Source of the DNA: Planctomycetota bacterium
GTDB taxonomy: Bacteria; Planctomycetota; Planctomycetia; JALXBF01
Assembly (NCBI GenBank): GCA_026991575.1
Contig: JALXBF010000016.1
Location: 1-64,000, forward strand
DNA: 64,000 bases
Direction: 5' to 3'
Below, one piece after another: positions 37,431 to 48,188 of the stretch. The translations under genes were made by a program, and so were the position numbers. Position 1 is the first letter of the stretch. Each line of letters begins with the position of its first letter. The notes under the pieces are model-generated. The model was not told where the DNA came from, did no database searches, and saw only the letters and a program-made list of their open reading frames with translations.

Positions 37431-37568
37431 TCGTACCGCGGCTGAGCGATGCGCTTGAGTTTGGCACGACGCCAAGGTCCCGCGGGCTGTGGTTGGGCCT
37501 GGCGTGGTGCCATCGGCCGCGTTCCAACGGATCGGTGTTGGCGCAGTCGAAGCGGGAGCCGAACCGAT

Positions 37569-37656
37569 CGGGCACCCTGCTTCAAACGGTCGGGCAGCCC
37601 CCTTCAAACACACGGGCAACCTGTTTCAAACGGACAAGCAGCCTGCTTCAGACGAG
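37569..37656 (+). repeat. Array of four 22-bp units
   Basis: Four contiguous units of exactly 22 bp starting at 37569, 37591, 37613 and 37635. Consensus starts CGGGCANCCTGCTTCAAACG. It matches the 9-unit array at 43207 in both sequence and the preceding ACCGAT. Confidence 0.85.
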
Positions 37657-37960
37657 CCAGGGGGGGCGCTGCGCCCCCTGGCCGGAGATTGATTGGGTAG
37701 CGCGCGCGGTATCGCCGCATTTTTTCTTTTGGCCTGCCGCCGCGGTCGCAGACCGCGGCGGCAGGGCAGCGCCCTGGCGCCGTGCCGCAGGCACCATCCG
37801 CCCGCGGCACGGCCCAGAAAGGGTCCTCTCGAGCCGCCGCGCTAGCTGATCAACCGTGCCGATCGGAGGCACAAGTCTCCCCGCCTGCTGCAGCAAGCCA
37901 CCCGATCGATCGGCGGCCGAGTCCGTGAGATGCTCCGTCGTGCCGTGCGCGTCATTCGCT
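37657..37960 (+). repeat. Palindrome-rich intergenic element, copy 1
   Basis: In order: a GC hairpin (37657-37681, CCAGGGGG arms), the box TTGATTGGGTAGCGC (37689-37703), a T-rich run, a 13-bp-arm perfect palindrome (37735-37763, TGCCGCCGCGGTC arm), a second palindrome (37779-37813, GCCGTGCCGC arm), and a GATCGATCGGC-containing tail to about 37960. Colinear with 44366-44670. Likely a dispersed non-coding element. Confidence 0.75.
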
Positions 37961-38238: not shown

Positions 38239-39261
38239 GTGCGTCTGTTAGACTCGGTGGTGAACGAGGCAGCGCTAACTACGGAGTCGGCGGTTACTCT
38301 TCACTTTGTTTTCGTCAACGACGGGCCTGAGCCGGTCGCGGTCCGTTTGGCCGGCGTCAGCTCCGGGTGCTGCATTTCTGCTATAGAGACCAGTCCGGTC
38401 AAGCTGGCCCCGGAACAGGCGCGGCCCTACGCAGTCCGCGTGCGCGTTCCCGCCACGGCCGGAGAAGTGACTGGCTGGTGTCGCTTTGTAGCATCGACTC
38501 TGGCGGAACGGTCCCGCCGTGCCGCTGTTGCGTTGTTAGGCCGCTTCGAGGTTGCTGTTGTCGAACCGGTGGAATTGGTGGCGCTTGGGGCGCAGGGCGG
38601 GTCCAGAATGCTGGCATCCGGGCTCTGCGGTGATGTTGTCGCGTTGGCCGGCGAGCTACGAGTTCGAGGCGTTGTGACGGACGACCTGCCGGAGGAAGCC
38701 TCTGCCTACGATCTCAGAGTTGCTATTCCCGAAACAAAGTTGAAAGTGACGCGTTTCTTGGGACGACGGCGTATCGGGTCGCGCATCATCGAGTACCGCT
38801 GGGAAGTGCATGGCGAGGCCACCCTGCCTCCTGTGCCCGGTCCAACAGAGCCCATGGAAGTGGTGGTGGAGGCCAACGGACGCGACTTGGGGCGCACCTG
38901 GTTTGTCATGAGAGCCAAGTCGTGGTACCGGGTTGATCCTCGGTCGGTGCTCATCAAGTGCGACGGATCCGGGCGGGTACACCGTTTTGCGGTGGAGGTC
39001 CGCGGCGACGGCATTGCGTCGGAGAAACCGCCCGGCATCAGGACGACGGGTAGCGTGCGTGCGTCTGTTGCCGATGCTGAGCGTGGCAGGTGTGTGGTGC
39101 AGGGGACATTCGAGTGCGGGCAGGAGTCTACGGGCTACGCAGAGATTATCTTGCGAGTCGACTGGAGCAAGCAGCGATGTGTTAGAATACCGGTGTTGCA
39201 TCTACGCGTTCAGGGTCATGCGCGACCAGGTGGGGAGGGTGGACCGTCACTGGTCCGGTGA
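38239..39261 (+). CDS. Putative phase-variable lipoprotein, DUF1573-like
   Basis: 340 residues from the GTG at 38239, the first usual start in this frame. The frame is open upstream to 38113 and there encodes a lipoprotein signal (LFLVLVCCAGCSSAAS), so the natural start is probably ATG 38064 through the GTCT repeat. The N-terminal domain (LTTESAVTLHFVFVNDGPEP, SSGCCISAIETSPVKLAPEQ) resembles DUF1573 Ig-like modules. A second beta-rich half follows. It would be anchored in the envelope. First gene of a cluster of five exported proteins, 21 bp upstream of the DUF1559 gene. Confidence 0.65.
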   Translation: MRLLDSVVNEAALTTESAVTLHFVFVNDGPEPVAVRLAGVSSGCCISAIETSPVKLAPEQARPYAVRVRVPATAGEVTGWCRFVASTLAERSRRAAVALLGRFEVAVVEPVELVALGAQGGSRMLASGLCGDVVALAGELRVRGVVTDDLPEEASAYDLRVAIPETKLKVTRFLGRRRIGSRIIEYRWEVHGEATLPPVPGPTEPMEVVVEANGRDLGRTWFVMRAKSWYRVDPRSVLIKCDGSGRVHRFAVEVRGDGIASEKPPGIRTTGSVRASVADAERGRCVVQGTFECGQESTGYAEIILRVDWSKQRCVRIPVLHLRVQGHARPGGEGGPSLVR

Positions 39262-39282: not shown

Positions 39283-40347
39283 ATGGCCATGGTCCCGCGG
39301 GTACCTGCACAGCGCGATTTGAGGGGATGCTCGAGGGGGGTAGCCCTGGTCGAGCTGATGGTGGTCATTGGTGTGTTGCTCGTTTTGGCCTCCCTTCTGT
39401 TTCCGGCAGTGCAGCGGGCACGCGCCACGGTTCGGAGGATGCAGTGTGCTGCCAACCTGCGCGAGCTTGCGCTTGCGACGATACAGTATCACGATGCTAT
39501 GGGGTGCATGCCTCCGGAGACGCTGAGTTGGTGGGTGCAGCTGCGACCAGGTCTTTCTGGTCCCGCACGGGCCAGGCAATACAGTCCCCATACCCATTTG
39601 CTTCCCTGGCTGGGGCTATCTGCACTGTACAATGCGATCAACTTCACGTTGGACGGTTTTTCGGCGTCCCCGTTTCTGCTTGACACGTATGCGTTTCGTG
39701 CGAACCGGACTGTGCTGGAGACTCGTGTTTCTGTGTTTGTGTGTCCGGCTGACGGTGAAGCTGCGGTGGGGCCGTGCTTGTCGTACCGTGGGAACATGGG
39801 TTTACTGGATCCTGCGCCGACACGCCGTGGCTGGCCAGATAGTGGCCACGGGATGTTCCGGCGGCCGCCGGTCAGATTTGGGGAGGTGAGTGACGGGGTG
39901 GCGGTGACTGCCATGTATGCGGAGCGGCTGGTTGGCAGGCCTGCGGGTGTGGTCCGCGAGACTGGGTTACGGCGGGCGATGTTACGAGTGTGGACCGGGT
40001 CGAATGTACCGCGCCGGGCGGACCGTTGGGCGGCTGTCTGTGCCGCGGCGAGTCGTGTGCGGGGGCGGATGGAGAGAGCGGACTGGGGAGCGGGGCGGTA
40101 CTGGCTGCCGTCCACGGGCCGATTTGCGCTGTACAACCACGTACTGCGTCCGAATGCGGCGGTGTACGACTGCTATTTGCAAGACAATTTCGGTGCTTTC
40201 ACGGCACGGAGTGTGCATCCTGGTTCCGTGGTGAACGTTGCTTTTGGGGATGGTCATGTGAGAGCGATTTCGAGCTCGCTGGATCTTAGCATTTGGCGTG
40301 CTCTGGGGACACGAGATGGTGGCGAGCTGGTGGGGGAGGATTTCTGA
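39283..40347 (+). CDS. DUF1559-type pseudopilin in the accessory island
   Basis: 354 residues. Prepilin-like N-terminus (CSRGVALVELMVVIGVLLVL) with Glu at +5 after the likely cleavage site and a long hydrophobic helix. DUF1559 hallmarks: RRMQCAANLRELALATIQY and the H-X9-DG end (VHPGSVVNVAFGDGHVRAI). It differs from the copy at 13332 in carrying a longer Arg-rich leader and V instead of F/L near the cleavage site. AAAGGAGATGG lies before the ATG. Codons end in T or G more often than in the ribosomal genes, as in the rest of the cluster. Confidence 0.88.
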   Translation: MAMVPRVPAQRDLRGCSRGVALVELMVVIGVLLVLASLLFPAVQRARATVRRMQCAANLRELALATIQYHDAMGCMPPETLSWWVQLRPGLSGPARARQYSPHTHLLPWLGLSALYNAINFTLDGFSASPFLLDTYAFRANRTVLETRVSVFVCPADGEAAVGPCLSYRGNMGLLDPAPTRRGWPDSGHGMFRRPPVRFGEVSDGVAVTAMYAERLVGRPAGVVRETGLRRAMLRVWTGSNVPRRADRWAAVCAAASRVRGRMERADWGAGRYWLPSTGRFALYNHVLRPNAAVYDCYLQDNFGAFTARSVHPGSVVNVAFGDGHVRAISSSLDLSIWRALGTRDGGELVGEDF

Positions 40348-40513
40348 CGGGGCGCAGTGTGGCCAGGTCGTTTGCGTTGTAGGTGGCGTTCTATGGGGTG
40401 CGTTGAGCAGGGTAGAAGGGGTTGCTCGGTTGTGGGATTGACGACGAGAGGAGGGGTTGCCATGTTGTACGCACGGGTACGTTCTTGGCTTCCGGCGATG
40501 CTGTGCTGGTCTG

Positions 40514-40882
40514 ATGCTGACGGTTGTGGCCGTGTGGCCGTCGTGTGGGCTTGGGGAACCCATCGATGAGTCGGCGTTGCGTGCGCTGCGTGGAGGGGAT
40601 ACGTTCATTGGCCAGGCCGTCGAGACGTGCGATTCAAAGAACGGCTTTGGAGGTGGCTGTGACGTTCCAGGGGCACCGTGCAGCAAGTGCAGTGTCAGCT
40701 CAGGCGGGAAGCTCGTATTCGATGCGGCGGGACAGGGATGGCGGGTCATCGCGCAGTTTGACTGCGGATGGGTGAAAACAGGAACATGCCAGAATAACGT
40801 CTGTATCGCCACAGTTGTGACTCCCACCCCGTGCAAGGATTTGTTGCTGGTAGACCAGCAGCCTATCGATCCCGATCCATAG
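40514..40882 (+). CDS. Exported Cys-rich protein with a double-glycine-type motif
   Basis: 122 residues from ATG 40514. A hydrophobic stretch is followed by EPIDESALRALRGG, ending in Gly27-Gly28 with Ile at -12, Leu at -7 and Leu at -4, the pattern of double-glycine leaders. The part after it has eight Cys (39, 49, 56, 59, 84, 92, 97, 107). The ATG at 40514 has no ribosome site. A well-placed GAGGAGGGG/ATG at 40462 opens MLYARVRSWLPAMLCW in another frame, and one base less would fuse it to the body as a clean signal peptide, so a frameshift is possible. Probable substrate of the C39 peptidase encoded at 42203. Confidence 0.6.
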   Translation: MLTVVAVWPSCGLGEPIDESALRALRGGDTFIGQAVETCDSKNGFGGGCDVPGAPCSKCSVSSGGKLVFDAAGQGWRVIAQFDCGWVKTGTCQNNVCIATVVTPTPCKDLLLVDQQPIDPDP

Positions 40883-40934
40883 GCGTGCGTTGTTGGTAGA
40901 CAGTTGCGGTGTTGGGACGGGGAGGTGTGGGGCC

Positions 40935-42119
40935 ATGGGCGCCCGAGTAGTTTGTGATACGCGCTGGCGTGTGTTGCGCCGGGCTGCGGCGTTGCTTACA
41001 ACGTGCATCGGGTTCGTTACGTGTGCTGGAGCGCAGGAGTCCAGTGTAGCATGGGCCGTTCTGGATCGCGTGGTGGAGGCGTACCGAGACGTTTACGACC
41101 TGCGCTTTGAGTACGATGCGTGGGTCGACTTTGGTCAGGACGGCAGTGTCGAGCAGACGACGACGGGAAGTTTTCTGTTCCGCCTGCGCGAACGGACATA
41201 CCGTTGGGAGCAAAGGCACCAGCGGGAAGACGGTGGTCCAGGGATACATGCTATTCACAGTCTCTTGCGCGGGAGCTACAACCTTTACACCAAGCACGCG
41301 GATGCTGTGCAGGGAACGCTACACCGTGGTTCGCAGAAGAACATCTGGACGTGGGGTGCTGGCGTGATCAGTCCGCTCTTTGACCCTCTGCTAATTGATC
41401 GGAGTCGCTGCGTGGCGTTTCTGCTCGGAGAGGAGCGCGTTGGCTTGCGTAAGTGCGCGCACGTGGTGGTGATCCCAAGGGGCTACGTTACCGAGCAGCG
41501 GTACCACGAGTTAAAGGCGATGGCGGCGCGCGGCGAGGTGCCTGACGATAGGCTCGGGCACAACTACTGGGTCGATACGGCGAGAGGTACAGTGCTCCGG
41601 TACGAGACGGTCGCTCTCGGGTTGGGCCCGGACGGTTCACGCCGTCCGATCACGACGTTTATAACGCGGGCAACGGAAGTGCGACCGTTTCGGCAGGATG
41701 GTGTGGAGATATGGCTTGCTGTGGAGGCTGAGAATGTGTGCATGCCGATGAGGCGAGGGAACGCGGTGGTGGTACCGGGCTACATCGAGCGGATCGTGAT
41801 TGTACCAGACAGTGTGCAGATCAATCCGCGAGCGCCGGACGAGGCGTATGTGATTGAGCCTCCTCCGGGCACACGGTTACAAGAGGAGGGGGATGATACG
41901 CTGGTACGGCCGGATGCGGACGCGCCACCGGCCGAGAGTATAGCGGATCTTGTGCGTGTGACGGATCGGATGATCGAAGAGGCGGATCGGCAGTTGCGGG
42001 AGGAGGGCCTGGCCGTGGTGGCCCCGGGACATGGCGGTGTGTGGCGCTGGGCGGTGCTGGTTGCAGGAGTGGTCCTGATTGTCGTGGGGCTGTGGTTGCG
42101 CAAGGCCAGCGTGGGCTAA
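40935..42119 (+). CDS. LolA-like exported protein with C-terminal membrane anchor
   Basis: 394 residues from ATG 40935 (GGGAGGTGTGG upstream). Sec signal peptide (AAALLTTCIGFVTCAGAQ). The body starts VLDRVVEAYRDVYDLRFEYD and ends with a IVPDSVQINPRAPDEAYVIE-like strand, matching the layout of outer-membrane lipoprotein-sorting/LolA-type folds. A Glu/Asp-rich linker leads to a transmembrane helix (WRWAVLVAGVVLIVVGLWLR) and a short basic tail. It may be a periplasmic binding or chaperone component for the neighbouring exported proteins. The assignment is by fold impression only. Confidence 0.7.
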   Translation: MGARVVCDTRWRVLRRAAALLTTCIGFVTCAGAQESSVAWAVLDRVVEAYRDVYDLRFEYDAWVDFGQDGSVEQTTTGSFLFRLRERTYRWEQRHQREDGGPGIHAIHSLLRGSYNLYTKHADAVQGTLHRGSQKNIWTWGAGVISPLFDPLLIDRSRCVAFLLGEERVGLRKCAHVVVIPRGYVTEQRYHELKAMAARGEVPDDRLGHNYWVDTARGTVLRYETVALGLGPDGSRRPITTFITRATEVRPFRQDGVEIWLAVEAENVCMPMRRGNAVVVPGYIERIVIVPDSVQINPRAPDEAYVIEPPPGTRLQEEGDDTLVRPDADAPPAESIADLVRVTDRMIEEADRQLREEGLAVVAPGHGGVWRWAVLVAGVVLIVVGLWLRKASVG

Positions 42120-42202
42120 AGTGCTTTGCCAGGTTCTCGTGTGGCAAGGAAGGGGTGGTCGTACGCCGTCGCAACGTCGTGGCGTCGGTCGGAGTCCTGG
42201 GT

Positions 42203-42853
42203 ATGGCTCGACAGCCACGCATAGGCTTGCAGGTTGTGCTGGCTTTGGCGGTAGCAGTCTGTGCGAGGGCCACATGGTGCGAAGGTGCTTTACAGGAGCC
42301 AACACCACGTGAGCAGGTCGCACACTCTACCCAGCCAAGCCGGGTCAATTGCGCGGTGCGTTGTCTGTACATCTTGGGCGCGTGGCTGGGAGAGCACTGG
42401 ACGTTCGAGCAGGTGCTTGCTGCCTTTGACACAGGCCCTGCGGCGGGCGAGGTGTCCGTCGAAGAACTCGTCGAAGCTGCTGGCCGGCTCGGTGTCACAC
42501 TTAGGCCAGCGCGCATGACGGCACGCGAGGCCGCCAGGGTACGCAGCCCGCTTGTGTTGCTCATCCCGCCCCGCGTAGAAGGCAGGCCTGGCCACTTTGT
42601 GGTGGCTCGCCCCGTTGGGGGTAGGCATGACGCATGGCAGGTGCTCGATCCAGACGCTACCCCGATGCTCACCACCCCGCACAGCATTTTCGGCCGAGGC
42701 CAACTGGTCGTGCTGGTGCCGACGCGCCGGGCGGGGGCAGAGCTCGTTGTCGGCACAGTGATTGTCGCGGCAGTTCTTGCGGTTGTGGTCGGTTTCGCGT
42801 ACCGGCGTCAGCGTCGTCGCACGACGGCGACGACTGGACGCTGTGCGGTATAG
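42203..42853 (+). CDS. Exported C39-family cysteine peptidase with membrane anchor
   Basis: 216 residues. N-terminal signal (LQVVLALAVAVCARATWCEG). The peptidase domain has Gln44 six residues before Cys50 (QPSRVNCAVRCLY), His131 (GHFVV) and Asp149 (VLDP): the Gln/Cys/His/Asp set of C39 bacteriocin-leader peptidases. A transmembrane helix (VVGTVIVAAVLAVVVGFAY) and a basic tail end the protein. Unlike typical C39 domains it is not fused to an ABC transporter and should act outside the cytoplasm. Alternative start: GTG 42155, which has a better ribosome site (AAGGAAGGGG). Last gene of the cluster. Confidence 0.82.
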   Translation: MARQPRIGLQVVLALAVAVCARATWCEGALQEPTPREQVAHSTQPSRVNCAVRCLYILGAWLGEHWTFEQVLAAFDTGPAAGEVSVEELVEAAGRLGVTLRPARMTAREAARVRSPLVLLIPPRVEGRPGHFVVARPVGGRHDAWQVLDPDATPMLTTPHSIFGRGQLVVLVPTRRAGAELVVGTVIVAAVLAVVVGFAYRRQRRRTTATTGRCAV

Positions 42854-43206
42854 TCGGCGCTTGCCCGGCGTGCCGAACGGCAGGACCCGGGGCCGGACGC
42901 AAGGTGGCCTGGGGTTGGCATCAGTGCAACCGTGGCTGGGCCGCTGTCTTGTTCCTCGTCGCTGCCCTACGGCGCGCTTATGGCGGGCAGTTTTCCCTGG
43001 GACCAACGGGAGTCCATCCCACGCTGTGGCGGGTCAAGAACCGGGTAACTGCAATGGCTGAATCGCTTCCGGTTGGGCCGGAGCGTTTCATCCTTTTGCG
43101 CCGGGACCGGCGGGCCGGGCCGGCCGTTTGGCGTCGCGTTGAGCGAGCGGGTGAGTAGGTTTCCGGCGTGGTGTTGGGGAGCAGGCGAACCGGGAACCGG
43201 ACCGAT

Positions 43207-43404
43207 CGGGCAGCCTACTTCAAACGCATGGGCAGGCTGGTTCGAACGCACGGGCGGGCCGCTTGAGCCGGACAGGTGGCTTGGCCCAGGCCGACGGGCA
43301 GTTTTCTTCCAACGCACGGGCGGCTTGCTTCAAATGGACGGGTGCCTTGGCTCGAACGGGCGGGCAGTGTCCTTGAAACCGGTGGGCGGGTTGCTTCAAA
43401 CGGG
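43207..43404 (+). repeat. Array of nine 22-bp units
   Basis: Nine contiguous units of exactly 22 bp (starts 43207, 43229, ... 43383). Consensus CGGGCRGSYTGCTTCAAACG plus two variable bases. Units have diverged from each other but keep strict spacing; 22 is not a multiple of three, so this is not a coding repeat. Confidence 0.88.
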
Positions 43405-44303: not shown

Positions 44304-44376
44304 GAGCCCGATGCAGGAGAGCCGCACGTCCGGTTCGGCGGGGGCGGGCCCCGGGCAACCGGGGCTTAATTTCCTG
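44304..44376 (+). mobile_element. Group II intron 3' remnant (domain V and domain VI-like hairpin)
   Basis: 44304-44336 matches the 33-34 base domain V: GAGCC start with the AGC triad, GAGA loop, CGCACGTCCGGTTC end with the two-base bulge. One stem position is mismatched (C against C). A hairpin GCCCCGG-GCAA-CCGGGGC (44348-44365) follows where domain VI belongs. No reverse transcriptase gene is near, so this is an ORF-less or truncated copy. The 5' end could not be placed; it may lie between 43985 and 44300. Confidence 0.7.
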
Positions 44377-44670
44377 GCCGGGGGTTGACTGGGTGGCGCC
44401 GGCGGTATCTTGTCGCTCTTCTGGCCCTGCCCCTGCCGCCGTGGTCGCAGACCGCGGCGGCAGAGCAGCGTCGCGGTGCCGTCCGCACGCAGCACCCGCC
44501 CGCGACACGGCCCAGGAAGAAGCTTTCTTCATCTACTGCGCCATTCAGTCAACCTTGTGGGCGGGGGGCGTGGAGCTCCTCGTGCTGCCCGTCGTTGAAG
44601 CAAGCGGCCGATCTATCGGCCTCCAAGTGCGCGAAATGCTCGGCTGTCGTGACAAGCGTCCCAATGGCCG
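44366..44670 (+). repeat. Palindrome-rich intergenic element, copy 3
   Basis: Follows the intron remnant. Box TTGACTGGGTGGCGC (44385-44399), palindrome 44433-44463 (CTGCCGCCGTGGTC arm, GCA loop), then CCGCCCGCG.CACGGCCCAG and a tail with CCGATCTATCGGCC to about 44670. Aligns colinearly with 37675-37960; the main palindrome and the tail are about 155 bp apart in both. Confidence 0.75.
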
Positions 44671-45161: not shown

Positions 45162-45482
45162 ATGACGGGTGGAAGAATTCGTATCCGGATGGAGGCTTAC
45201 GACCATAAGGTGCTCGATGACGCGGCAAAGAGCATCGTGGACACGGCGCTGGGAACCGGGGCCGACGTCCACGGCCCGATTCCGTTGCCGACGCGCATCG
45301 AGCGGTACACGGTGCTGCGCAGCCCGCACATCGACAAGAAGTCGCGCGAGCAGTTTGAGATCCGCACGCACAAGCGGCTGATCGACATTCTGCATCCGAC
45401 GCAACGCACCATCGATGCCCTGAACCGCTTGAGTCTGCCGGCTGGCGTGGACATCAAGATCAAGGCGTATCCGGTCCGCTGA
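45162..45482 (+). CDS. rpsJ: 30S ribosomal protein uS10
   Basis: 106 residues. [40 protein letters not shown] and [14 protein letters not shown] are canonical. First gene of the S10 operon. Confidence 0.98.
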
Positions 45483-45550
45483 CGTCGCGCTGCGGCGCCG
45501 GCTGAACGTCCGGGTGCCGCGGCCGGTCATGACCGTCAGGGAGAGTGGCG

Positions 45551-46201
45551 ATGATCGTCGGTTTGTTGGGCAAGAAGATTGGTATGACCCAGATCTTTGA
45601 GGAGGACGGCACGGCTGTGCCCGTGACCGTGTTGCGGGTGGGGCCGTGTGTCGTCTTGAACGTGCGCACGCAGGAGCGCGACGGCTACTGGGCGATCCAG
45701 CTTGGCTTTGAGGACAAGCCACGCACGAAGGCAACCCGACCGGAGCGTGGTGTGGCCAGCAAGGCGAATACCGAGCCCAAGCGGTTCATCCGTGAGATTC
45801 GCCAGCGCGGACCAGTGGATGTGCAGCAGGGTGACGTGTTAACGGTTGAGCTGTTCAAGGACATCCCGGCCGTGGACGTGATCGGTACGTCCAAAGGGCG
45901 CGGTACGGCTGGCGTGATGCGTCGCTGGGGATTCGGTGGCCTGCCCGCCAGTCACGGTGTCAAACGGAAGCACCGTTCGCCCGGTTCTATCGGGGCAACG
46001 ACCGACCCCGGTCGGGTGTTGAAGGGCAAGAAGATGGCCGGGCGGATGGGCAACCAGCGGGTAACCATCCGCAACCTGAAGGTTGTCCGCGTGATGCCTG
46101 AGCAGGACCTGTTGCTGGTCAAGGGGGGCGTGCCCGGCCCGAACGGTGGCTACGTGATCGTGCGTCAGTCGAACAAGCTCAGAGAGCCCGTGTCGGCGTG
46201 A
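45551..46201 (+). CDS. rplC: 50S ribosomal protein uL3
   Basis: 216 residues from ATG 45551 (GGGAG 7 bases upstream; GTG 45545 would add two residues). MIVGLLGKKIGMTQIF start, KGRGTAGVMRRWGFGGLPAS and the long peptidyl-transferase-side loop (KKMAGRMGNQRVT) are present. Confidence 0.98.
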   Translation: MIVGLLGKKIGMTQIFEEDGTAVPVTVLRVGPCVVLNVRTQERDGYWAIQLGFEDKPRTKATRPERGVASKANTEPKRFIREIRQRGPVDVQQGDVLTVELFKDIPAVDVIGTSKGRGTAGVMRRWGFGGLPASHGVKRKHRSPGSIGATTDPGRVLKGKKMAGRMGNQRVTIRNLKVVRVMPEQDLLLVKGGVPGPNGGYVIVRQSNKLREPVSA

Positions 46202-46250
46202 GCTTGGCGTTGTTTTCGGGTGCCAGAGCGGCCCGTTAGGGATGTAAGCG

Positions 46251-46916
46251 ATGGAACTTCCGGTATACGATCGCTCGGGGAACCAGGTCGGCACGTTGAC
46301 GGTGGATCCGGCCGACTTTGGTGGCCGCATCAACAAGCAGCTGTTACACGACGTGGTGGTCATGTACCACGCCAACCGGCGGCAGGGCACGGTGAAGACG
46401 AAGAACCGTGCTGAGGTCGCCGGTTCGGGCCGGAAGCTGTATCGGCAGAAAGGAACCGGGTTGGCCCGTGTGGGCGATCGGCGCACGGGCAAGCGGGTCG
46501 GTGGCGGCATGACGCATGCGAAGCGGCCGCGCGACTTCTACTACCGGCTGCCAAAAAAAGCGGTGCGGGCGGCCACCCGGATGGCGTTCTTGAGCAAGAT
46601 CCTGGACGACGAGATTGTCATCATCGACTCGTTGGTCTTCGAGGAGCCGAAGACACGTGAGATGGTGGCGATCCTCCAGGCGCTTGGGCTGGCGGAGCAG
46701 AGCGTGCTGATTGCGCCGCGTGCTTATGATGAGCTGCTCTGGAAGTCGGCGCGCAACATCGAGCGGGTCGGTGTCCTGCCGGCTACGGATCTGAATGCCT
46801 GGGCGCTGTTGCGGTACAAGCGGCTGTTAATCACGCAGGAGGCGTTTGAGTTTTTCCGTGACCGCTCGCGGCAGCAGTTAGGGTTGGTGGCCGCCGGTGA
46901 GGCTTCGTCCGCGTAG
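46251..46916 (+). CDS. rplD: 50S ribosomal protein uL4
   Basis: 221 residues. The exit-tunnel loop GSGRKLYRQKGTGLARVGDR and the C-terminal RNA-binding fold are typical. In E. coli uL4 also represses the S10 operon. Confidence 0.97.
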   Translation: MELPVYDRSGNQVGTLTVDPADFGGRINKQLLHDVVVMYHANRRQGTVKTKNRAEVAGSGRKLYRQKGTGLARVGDRRTGKRVGGGMTHAKRPRDFYYRLPKKAVRAATRMAFLSKILDDEIVIIDSLVFEEPKTREMVAILQALGLAEQSVLIAPRAYDELLWKSARNIERVGVLPATDLNAWALLRYKRLLITQEAFEFFRDRSRQQLGLVAAGEASSA

Positions 46917-46969
46917 CCCAATTGGCGCGTCAACGGGCGGCGTGGAGCGCTTTAGGGAGCTGCTCACAG

Positions 46970-47305
46970 ATGGCTAGAAGACAGACCGTGTACCACCAGC
47001 GGCAGCAGCAACAGAGAGGGCCGGAGCTTGACCTGCATCAGGTGATCCTGCGGCCGATTGTGTCGGAGAAATCGCTGCAGCTGGCTGAGCAGTTGAATCA
47101 ATACACCTTCGAGGTCAATCGCTGGGCTACCAAGCAGCAGGTACGTCGCGCCGTGGAGCAGCTGTTCGATGTCCGAGTTGTGGCGGTGCGGATCGTGAAT
47201 CTGAAAGGCAAGCGGCGAAGGATGCGGTTCACGGAAGGGCGGACTGCAGCGAAGAAAAAGGCCATTGTGCGGTTGCACCCCGACGACCGGTTGAACTTTG
47301 TGTAG
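46970..47305 (+). CDS. rplW: 50S ribosomal protein uL23
   Basis: 111 residues from ATG 46970 (AGGGAGC upstream). A Gln/Arg-rich N-terminal tail of about 20 residues precedes LHQVILRPIVSEKSLQLAEQ. It sits at the tunnel exit and docks SRP and trigger factor. Confidence 0.96.
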   Translation: MARRQTVYHQRQQQQRGPELDLHQVILRPIVSEKSLQLAEQLNQYTFEVNRWATKQQVRRAVEQLFDVRVVAVRIVNLKGKRRRMRFTEGRTAAKKKAIVRLHPDDRLNFV

Positions 47306-47333
47306 TACGACACGAGCAGGAGTGGCGTAAGCG

Positions 47334-48188
47334 ATGGGCATCCGCTACTACAAGCCGACGAGCCCCGGTCGGCGGTTCGCGAGCGTGAGTGATTTCTCCG
47401 AGATCACCGACCGGAAGAAGAAGCCGGAGAAGTCGCTGTTGCGACCGTTGAAGAAGACCGCGGGCCGCAACAATCAGGGGGTGATTACCGCGCGGCACCG
47501 GGGCGGTGGCCACAAGCGGCGCTATCGCGTGATCGATTTCCGTCGGGACAAGGACGGGATTCCTGGGAAGGTGGTTTCCATCGAGTACGATCCGAACCGT
47601 TCGGCCCGCATTGCGCTGATTGCGTATCGTGATGGCGAGAAGCGGTACATCATTGCCCCGGAGGGGCTGAAGGCTGGCGACATCATCATGAACGGGCCGG
47701 ATGCCGAGCCGCGCGTAGGCAACTGCCTGCCGCTGAAGCGGATCCCCACCGGGATGTCGATCCACAACATCGAGCTGCAACCGGGCAAGGGCGGTCAGCT
47801 TTGTCGTGCCGCCGGCACCAGTGCGGTACTGAATGCTTGCGAAGGCAAGTGGGCGATCATCACGTTGCCCAGTGGTGAGATGCGGAAGGTGCGGGCGGAG
47901 TGCCGGGCGACGATCGGCGTGGTCAGCAATGCGGACCACATGAACATCCGGCTGGGCAAGGCGGGGCGGAAACGGTGGCTGGGTCGTCGGCCGCATGTGC
48001 GGGGTACAGCGATGAATCCGGTGGATCACCCGATGGGTGGTGGTGAAGGCCGGAGCAAAGGGCATGAGCCGCAGAGCCCGACGGGTGTGCCGGCCAAGGG
48101 TGGCCGCACCCGGAATCCGCGCAAGCCTAGTCGGAAGCTGATCCTGCGTCGCCGTACCTCGAAGCGCTACGGCCAGTTGCCGATCTAG
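47334..48188 (+). CDS. rplB: 50S ribosomal protein uL2
   Basis: 284 residues. Contains [20 protein letters not shown] and the conserved peptidyl-transferase-proximal [20 protein letters not shown]. Slightly longer than E. coli uL2 (273). Confidence 0.98.

Follow-up and report, generated by a model that had tools for sequence, protein, structure and literature searches.

On the forward strand of the window (the whole 64,000-nucleotide stretch of planctomycete DNA analysed here), a cassette of genes encodes a small Cys-rich protein and a C39 peptidase. Its first gene (38239–39261) encodes a protein with a weak resemblance to DUF1573 (Pfam E 0.015, below the cut-off), and related genes hold the same position in paralogous cassettes on contigs C139 and C33 of the same genome. 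It is followed by a gene for a DUF1559 pseudopilin-like protein (39283–40347; PF07596, E 6.3e-31; TIGR04294 HX9DG, E 2.6e-4), a type of gene recurrent in relatives of the locus, and then by the frame of the Cys-rich double-glycine protein (40457–40882), whose true start is uncertain. An exported protein with a single, C-terminal membrane helix, LolA-like by eye and without a Pfam match, is encoded between the Cys-rich gene and the peptidase gene (40935–42119); it has relatives at 11 other places in its own genome, and a related family occupies the same intermediate position in 21 loci. The peptidase gene itself (42203–42853; PF03412, E 1.6e-6, above the Pfam cut-off) codes for a signal peptide, a C39 domain, a C-terminal membrane helix and a basic tail. 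Among the open reading frames of the window that we read, and in a scan of the surroundings of the locus for Walker A and LSGGQ motifs, we saw no ABC-ATPase-like gene, in line with a preliminary description of this DNA that had reported a cluster without an ABC transporter.

The cassette lies close upstream of a ribosomal protein operon (45162–48188; S10, L3, L4, L23 and L2, from their translations). It is bracketed by dispersed repeats (37534–37821, 43170–43403 and 44373–44519) that are about 68–79% alike and partly palindromic. The same repeat family also brackets the paralogous cassette on C139 (905–1210 and 6102–6499 of locus L005), which would fit cassettes that moved or recombined by way of these repeats.

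The Cys-rich protein

The frame 40514–40882 contains the string IDESALRALR-GG, with Ile at -12, Leu at -7 and Leu at -4 before Gly27-Gly28 (counted from the Met at 40514), and exactly eight cysteines after it, just as the preliminary description had read them. The leader motif IDESALRALRGG (40562–40597, predicted cut after 40597) matches the family motif described below and stands directly before the predicted mature eight-Cys domain (40598–40879). The Cys columns of this domain are conserved among 16 relatives: seven are invariant in one alignment and eight in another. When scored by a leader model built without it, the window leader reaches 12.1, against a control maximum of 9.6.

The start of the gene is harder to place. 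In frame, translation could begin at Met 40514, which leaves the protein with no charged n-region, or else only at TTG 40457. Just one ATG is preceded by a good ribosome-binding site (GAGGAGGGGTTGCC-ATG, at 40462), and it opens another frame that stops at 40569. The export signal of the window copy is thus not readable in one frame. Because these start frames conflict, the copy probably carries a frameshift between 40462 and 40514, real or due to the assembly, or else uses an unusual start. Most of its relatives have a normal signal-like N-terminus.

Neither Pfam nor NCBIfam gave a credible match to a named family when the window protein and ten relatives were compared with each library, and the AlphaFold model of the protein is poor (pLDDT 58). 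Used as a query against 392 genomes, the protein matched only three copies in its own genome, owing to the rapid divergence of the mature domains; the better search anchor is the peptidase. We also considered that these proteins might be lipoproteins and rejected the idea, since a lipobox-like string was present in only 2 of 48.

The exported C39 peptidase

The window C39 peptidase, read from Met 42203, has Gln44, Cys50, His131 and Asp149 at the positions claimed for them in the preliminary description, and its N-terminal hydrophobic segment and C-terminal membrane helix correspond to the signal peptide and membrane anchor proposed there. The catalytic codons lie on the forward strand at 42350–42352 (Cys50), 42593–42595 (His131) and 42647–42649 (Asp149). 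All three residues are invariant across 24 relatives, and in a set of 72 C39 domains the Cys is kept in 89%, the His in 93% and the Asp in 90%. A Gln before the catalytic Cys is the usual oxyanion residue of C39 peptidases. Gln44 is present in the window protein but is not conserved among its relatives, in which Trp is the commonest residue at -6 from the Cys. The AlphaFold model of the window peptidase (pLDDT 82.9) matches the fold of PCAT1 and ComA with probability 1.00. Compared with solved structures, the exported-C39 profile ranks leader-cleaving domains first: ComA (1e-18), PCAT1, LahT with bound leader (6mpz) and HlyB.

The C39 proteins of most fetched loci share the plan of the window protein, i.e., signal peptide, C39 domain, C-terminal helix and basic tail, and 55 of 65 loci encode a membrane-anchored peptidase. 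Net charge averages +3.2 after the membrane helix and +0.6 before it. The positive tail therefore places the C39 domain, by prediction, outside the cytoplasm.

As a rule, double-glycine processing is linked to ABC transporters and the cytoplasm. One could propose that these peptidases belong to ordinary peptidase-containing ABC exporters, with the transporter encoded elsewhere in the genome and the C39 domain cutting in the cytoplasm. The leader is indeed of the type used by such transporters, and ABC-sized C39 proteins occur elsewhere in the phylum: in a phylum-wide search, most matches outside the class were open frames of the size of an ABC transporter, so that our proposal of an exported, helix-anchored family is limited to the class. 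Yet the precursors start with segments of the signal type; the C39 proteins combine a signal peptide with a C-terminal helix and a basic tail; and an ABC-ATPase-like open reading frame is near only 2 of 65 loci. We consider this explanation very improbable.

Some C39 proteins depart from the common plan. The catalytic Cys is lost in copies at L017 (6863–8785, reverse strand), L061, L068, L098, L074 and L075, several of which are tandem second copies adjoining an intact C39; they are possibly pseudopeptidase partners. No leader protein is found upstream of the copy at L075. In L016 (6883–8292), L019 (6345–8021), L066 and L104, the exported C39 domain and its helix are fused to a DUF1573-type domain, and translations indicate apparent fusions to LolA-like (L071, L217) or rhodanese-like (L109) parts.

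Recurrence of leader and peptidase in Planctomycetia

The exported-C39 profile matched 75 of 298 Planctomycetia genomes, and we fetched sixty loci. Upstream of the exported C39 we found small proteins (about 90–185 residues) whose N-terminus is of the signal type and which carry a double-glycine leader and, typically, 6–16 cysteines. Open reading frames combining a signal, the motif and a Cys-rich sequence under one strict rule numbered 26 in the 142 kb upstream of exported C39 genes, and the same rule gave none in 144 kb downstream, two in 390 kb of distal sequence and none in 734 kb of antisense sequence. Of the 63 loci for which 2.5 kb or more of upstream sequence is available, 36 have leave-one-out leader scores above those of all antisense controls, although these controls are non-coding and the sequences related, so that the p-values are optimistic and the figures somewhat inflated. 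Among the remaining loci, others have weaker yet recognisable leaders. In roughly one in four of the loci that have sufficient flank, no leader protein could be recognised, and at the position of the cut site some loci show GQ, GL, GR or GT. Six of 15 loci left out of the motif model score above the control maximum, and a seventh (L160) has a leader according to the family profile. A closer C39 alignment gathers 13 loci, and each of them belongs to an uncultured member of Planctomycetales or Isosphaeraceae. The preliminary description had made its proposal depend on whether the two genes occur together in other genomes: the pair does recur across Planctomycetia.

The leader could also be recovered de novo. 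Gibbs sampling without anchors, applied to 45 post-signal segments, recovered the motif in 42 of them, with a total score of 524; ten shuffled sets averaged 339 and reached at most 353. The motif had a held-out p<0.05 in 36 of the 45. Among 40 leaders, V, L or I occupies -12 in 38 and -4 in 37, E occupies -8 in 22, A or L occupies -7 in 31, and G, A or S occupies -1 in 34. In sequence, the family leader is the canonical LSxxELxxIxGG leader, with agreement at -12, -8, -7, -4, -2 and -1, and the window motif is of this type. It is not located at the extreme N-terminus: it follows a hydrophobic signal-type segment by 15–31 residues, and its cleavage is predicted to occur outside the cytoplasm.

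We then reversed the search and used a profile of 16 leaders alone, blind to C39, on the 298 genomes. The new matches included five full-length Cys-rich proteins (L097, L063, L216, L217 and L219), all of which adjoin a C39 domain; those of L216 and L217 had been missed by the earlier C39 search. A sixth full-length match (L218) lacks a Cys-rich mature part and resembles a lipoprotein matched by chance. The window protein is a member of the eight-Cys family, and a profile of this family gave 25 matches, of which 20 are beside a C39 gene, two at contig ends and two are the own-genome copies lacking the motif. In the member at L155, the site reads Gly-Arg and the neighbouring C39 is, by eye, a remnant without the part that carries the catalytic Cys.

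The genome of the window (191 contigs, 4.96 Mb) contains cassettes both with and without the peptidase. The two paralogous cassettes on C139 and C33 encode a related Cys-rich protein and have no C39. At the position of the double glycine, these paralogues read ALA-DTFIG and ARA-DTLIG, against RGG-DTFIG in the window. Further C39-less cassettes, on C129 and C28, encode exported Cys-rich proteins without the leader motif. Six C39 domains are found in this genome, on C16 (the window contig), C118, C74 (two), C64 and C92. The Cys-rich proteins adjoining them have GG on C16, GS on C118 (in ARAELERVTGS) and GA in the two copies on C74 (in LPDATAATLQGA); the N-terminus is missing from the protein on C92, and beside the C39 gene on C64 we saw no such protein. 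Within this genome, the leader motif is therefore absent where C39 is absent.

Patterns of Ile, Leu and Gly are common, and for the window locus taken alone an exported Cys-rich protein with a fortuitous Gly-Gly could have come to neighbour a C39 gene by chance. This is contradicted by the recurrence of the pair, the de novo recovery of the motif and the outcome of the reverse search, which leave coincidence scarcely credible.

Proposed leader processing outside the cytoplasm

We propose that Sec exports both partners and that the C39 peptidase cuts after Gly-Gly, Gly-Ala or Gly-Ser outside the cytoplasm, thereby freeing the Cys-rich domain. Given the sequence patterns described above, this is probably how the pair works. 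It would be a two-component, Sec-coupled form of double-glycine leader processing. The N-terminal signal of the Cys-rich precursor would guide it across the inner membrane. The peptidase, predicted to be held by its C-terminal helix with the C39 domain outside the cytoplasm, would recognise the leader about 15–31 residues past the hydrophobic stretch, through V/L/I at -12, E at -8, A/L at -7, V/L/I at -4, G at -2 and G/A/S at -1. The cut after the double glycine would take place on the outer surface of the inner membrane and would detach the disulfide-rich domain from its leader or from its membrane anchor. To the preliminary description, both partners looked Sec-exported. Signal-like N-termini on both proteins and the basic tail of the C39 agree with it, and for the window copy of the Cys-rich protein it is weakened by the signal that cannot be read in one frame.

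Tentatively, the membrane-tethered C39 could replace signal peptidase for these disulfide-rich proteins, freeing them from their signal anchor for assembly with a surface system of the pseudopilus type that the same cassette would encode; the same reading, held just as tentatively, would make the system a second branch of double-glycine/C39 processing in Planctomycetia, operating beyond the inner membrane. An equally tentative variant, which does not exclude the main claim, has signal peptidase I cutting first and C39 later removing a short double-glycine propeptide from a soluble periplasmic precursor, so that C39 would activate its substrate rather than release it. The gap of 15–31 residues between the hydrophobic stretch and the double glycine would suit this order, as would the (-3,-1)-compatible site that follows the hydrophobic stretch in 48 of 48 proteins under a relaxed, nearly uninformative rule. 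However, only 9 of the 48 have a strict A-x-A site close to the hydrophobic stretch, and the membrane anchoring of most of the peptidases suits a membrane-bound substrate.

As for the fate of the product, the pseudopilin, LolA-like and glycosyltransferase neighbours hint at a role at the surface or in the matrix, and the freed domain may go there, conceivably together with the DUF1559 pseudopilin of the same cassette. The glycosyltransferase, a PMT-type (dolichyl-phosphate-mannose-like) enzyme, is encoded downstream of the cassette in about 12 loci (e.g., L016 at 9450, L017 at 3028, L019 at 8022, and L054), which suggests glycosylation of a cassette product.

The closest precedent is FapD of the Pseudomonas Fap functional amyloid, a periplasmic C39 protein needed for Fap secretion, whose target was reported as unclear and whose catalytic Cys is required (PMC5557850); a 2025 review states that it is thought to process FapE and FapF (PMC12822426). 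The claim of the preliminary description that known double-glycine systems cleave in the cytoplasm is consequently incomplete, FapD being a precedent for a C39 in the periplasm (PMC5557850). Like FapD, the planctomycete peptidases are C39-family proteins with a Sec signal, periplasmic (in their case by prediction) and without an ABC transporter. Unlike FapD, they have a C-terminal membrane helix. The Fap proteins lack canonical C39 sequences, whereas the leader of the planctomycete partner is canonical. The neighbours read beside the planctomycete C39 are DUF1573-like, DUF1559, Cys-rich and LolA-like proteins, and none of them looked like a Fap-type repeat protein.

With FapD in mind, C39 might instead act on another member of the cassette, such as the pseudopilin or the LolA-like protein, or serve as a non-catalytic chaperone for which the double glycine is a docking site. 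The copies without a catalytic Cys, some of them tandem second copies, fit this explanation, and what has been proven for FapD is a role in secreting another protein, its own target being uncertain (PMC5557850). We nevertheless find it rather unlikely, because the motif matches a canonical cleavage leader position by position, including the small residue at -1 in most leaders, and disappears from the own-genome cassettes that have no C39.

The proposed cleavage of the Cys-rich precursor by the exported C39 has much in common with that of peptidase-containing ABC transporters (ComA, PCAT1 and the LahT domain). These share with the planctomycete C39 the peptidase fold of PF03412 and the Cys/His/Asp triad, and their leaders follow the same logic: hydrophobic residues at -12, -7 and -4, Gly at -2, and Gly, Ala or Ser at -1. 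The differences from these transporters are in the architecture. The planctomycete C39 has no attached transporter (in the window it is signal peptide, C39 and membrane helix); peptidase and substrate are both predicted outside the cytoplasm, the substrate entering by a Sec-type signal; and the mature part is a Cys-rich domain of 60–130 residues. In Xanthomonas, the secreted protein Ax21 had been proposed to be linked to the C39 transporter RaxB, and Ax21 turned out to be processed by the general Sec system (PMC3897388). That link rested on one protein, whereas the planctomycete motif and peptidase recur together across many genomes. Our search, confined to the open-access literature, found no description of the planctomycete pair. 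C39/double-glycine processing outside the cytoplasm, by a pair widespread in Planctomycetia, would most likely be a new form of a known type of processing.

Across a large class of bacteria, the same leader and the same peptidase fold would be used as a stand-alone pair facing outward, and dozens of independent substrate sequences define the motif. The pair may provide a concrete substrate model for exported C39 proteases, FapD included, and its leader motif a way to locate the mature ends of many uncharacterised exported proteins of planctomycetes.
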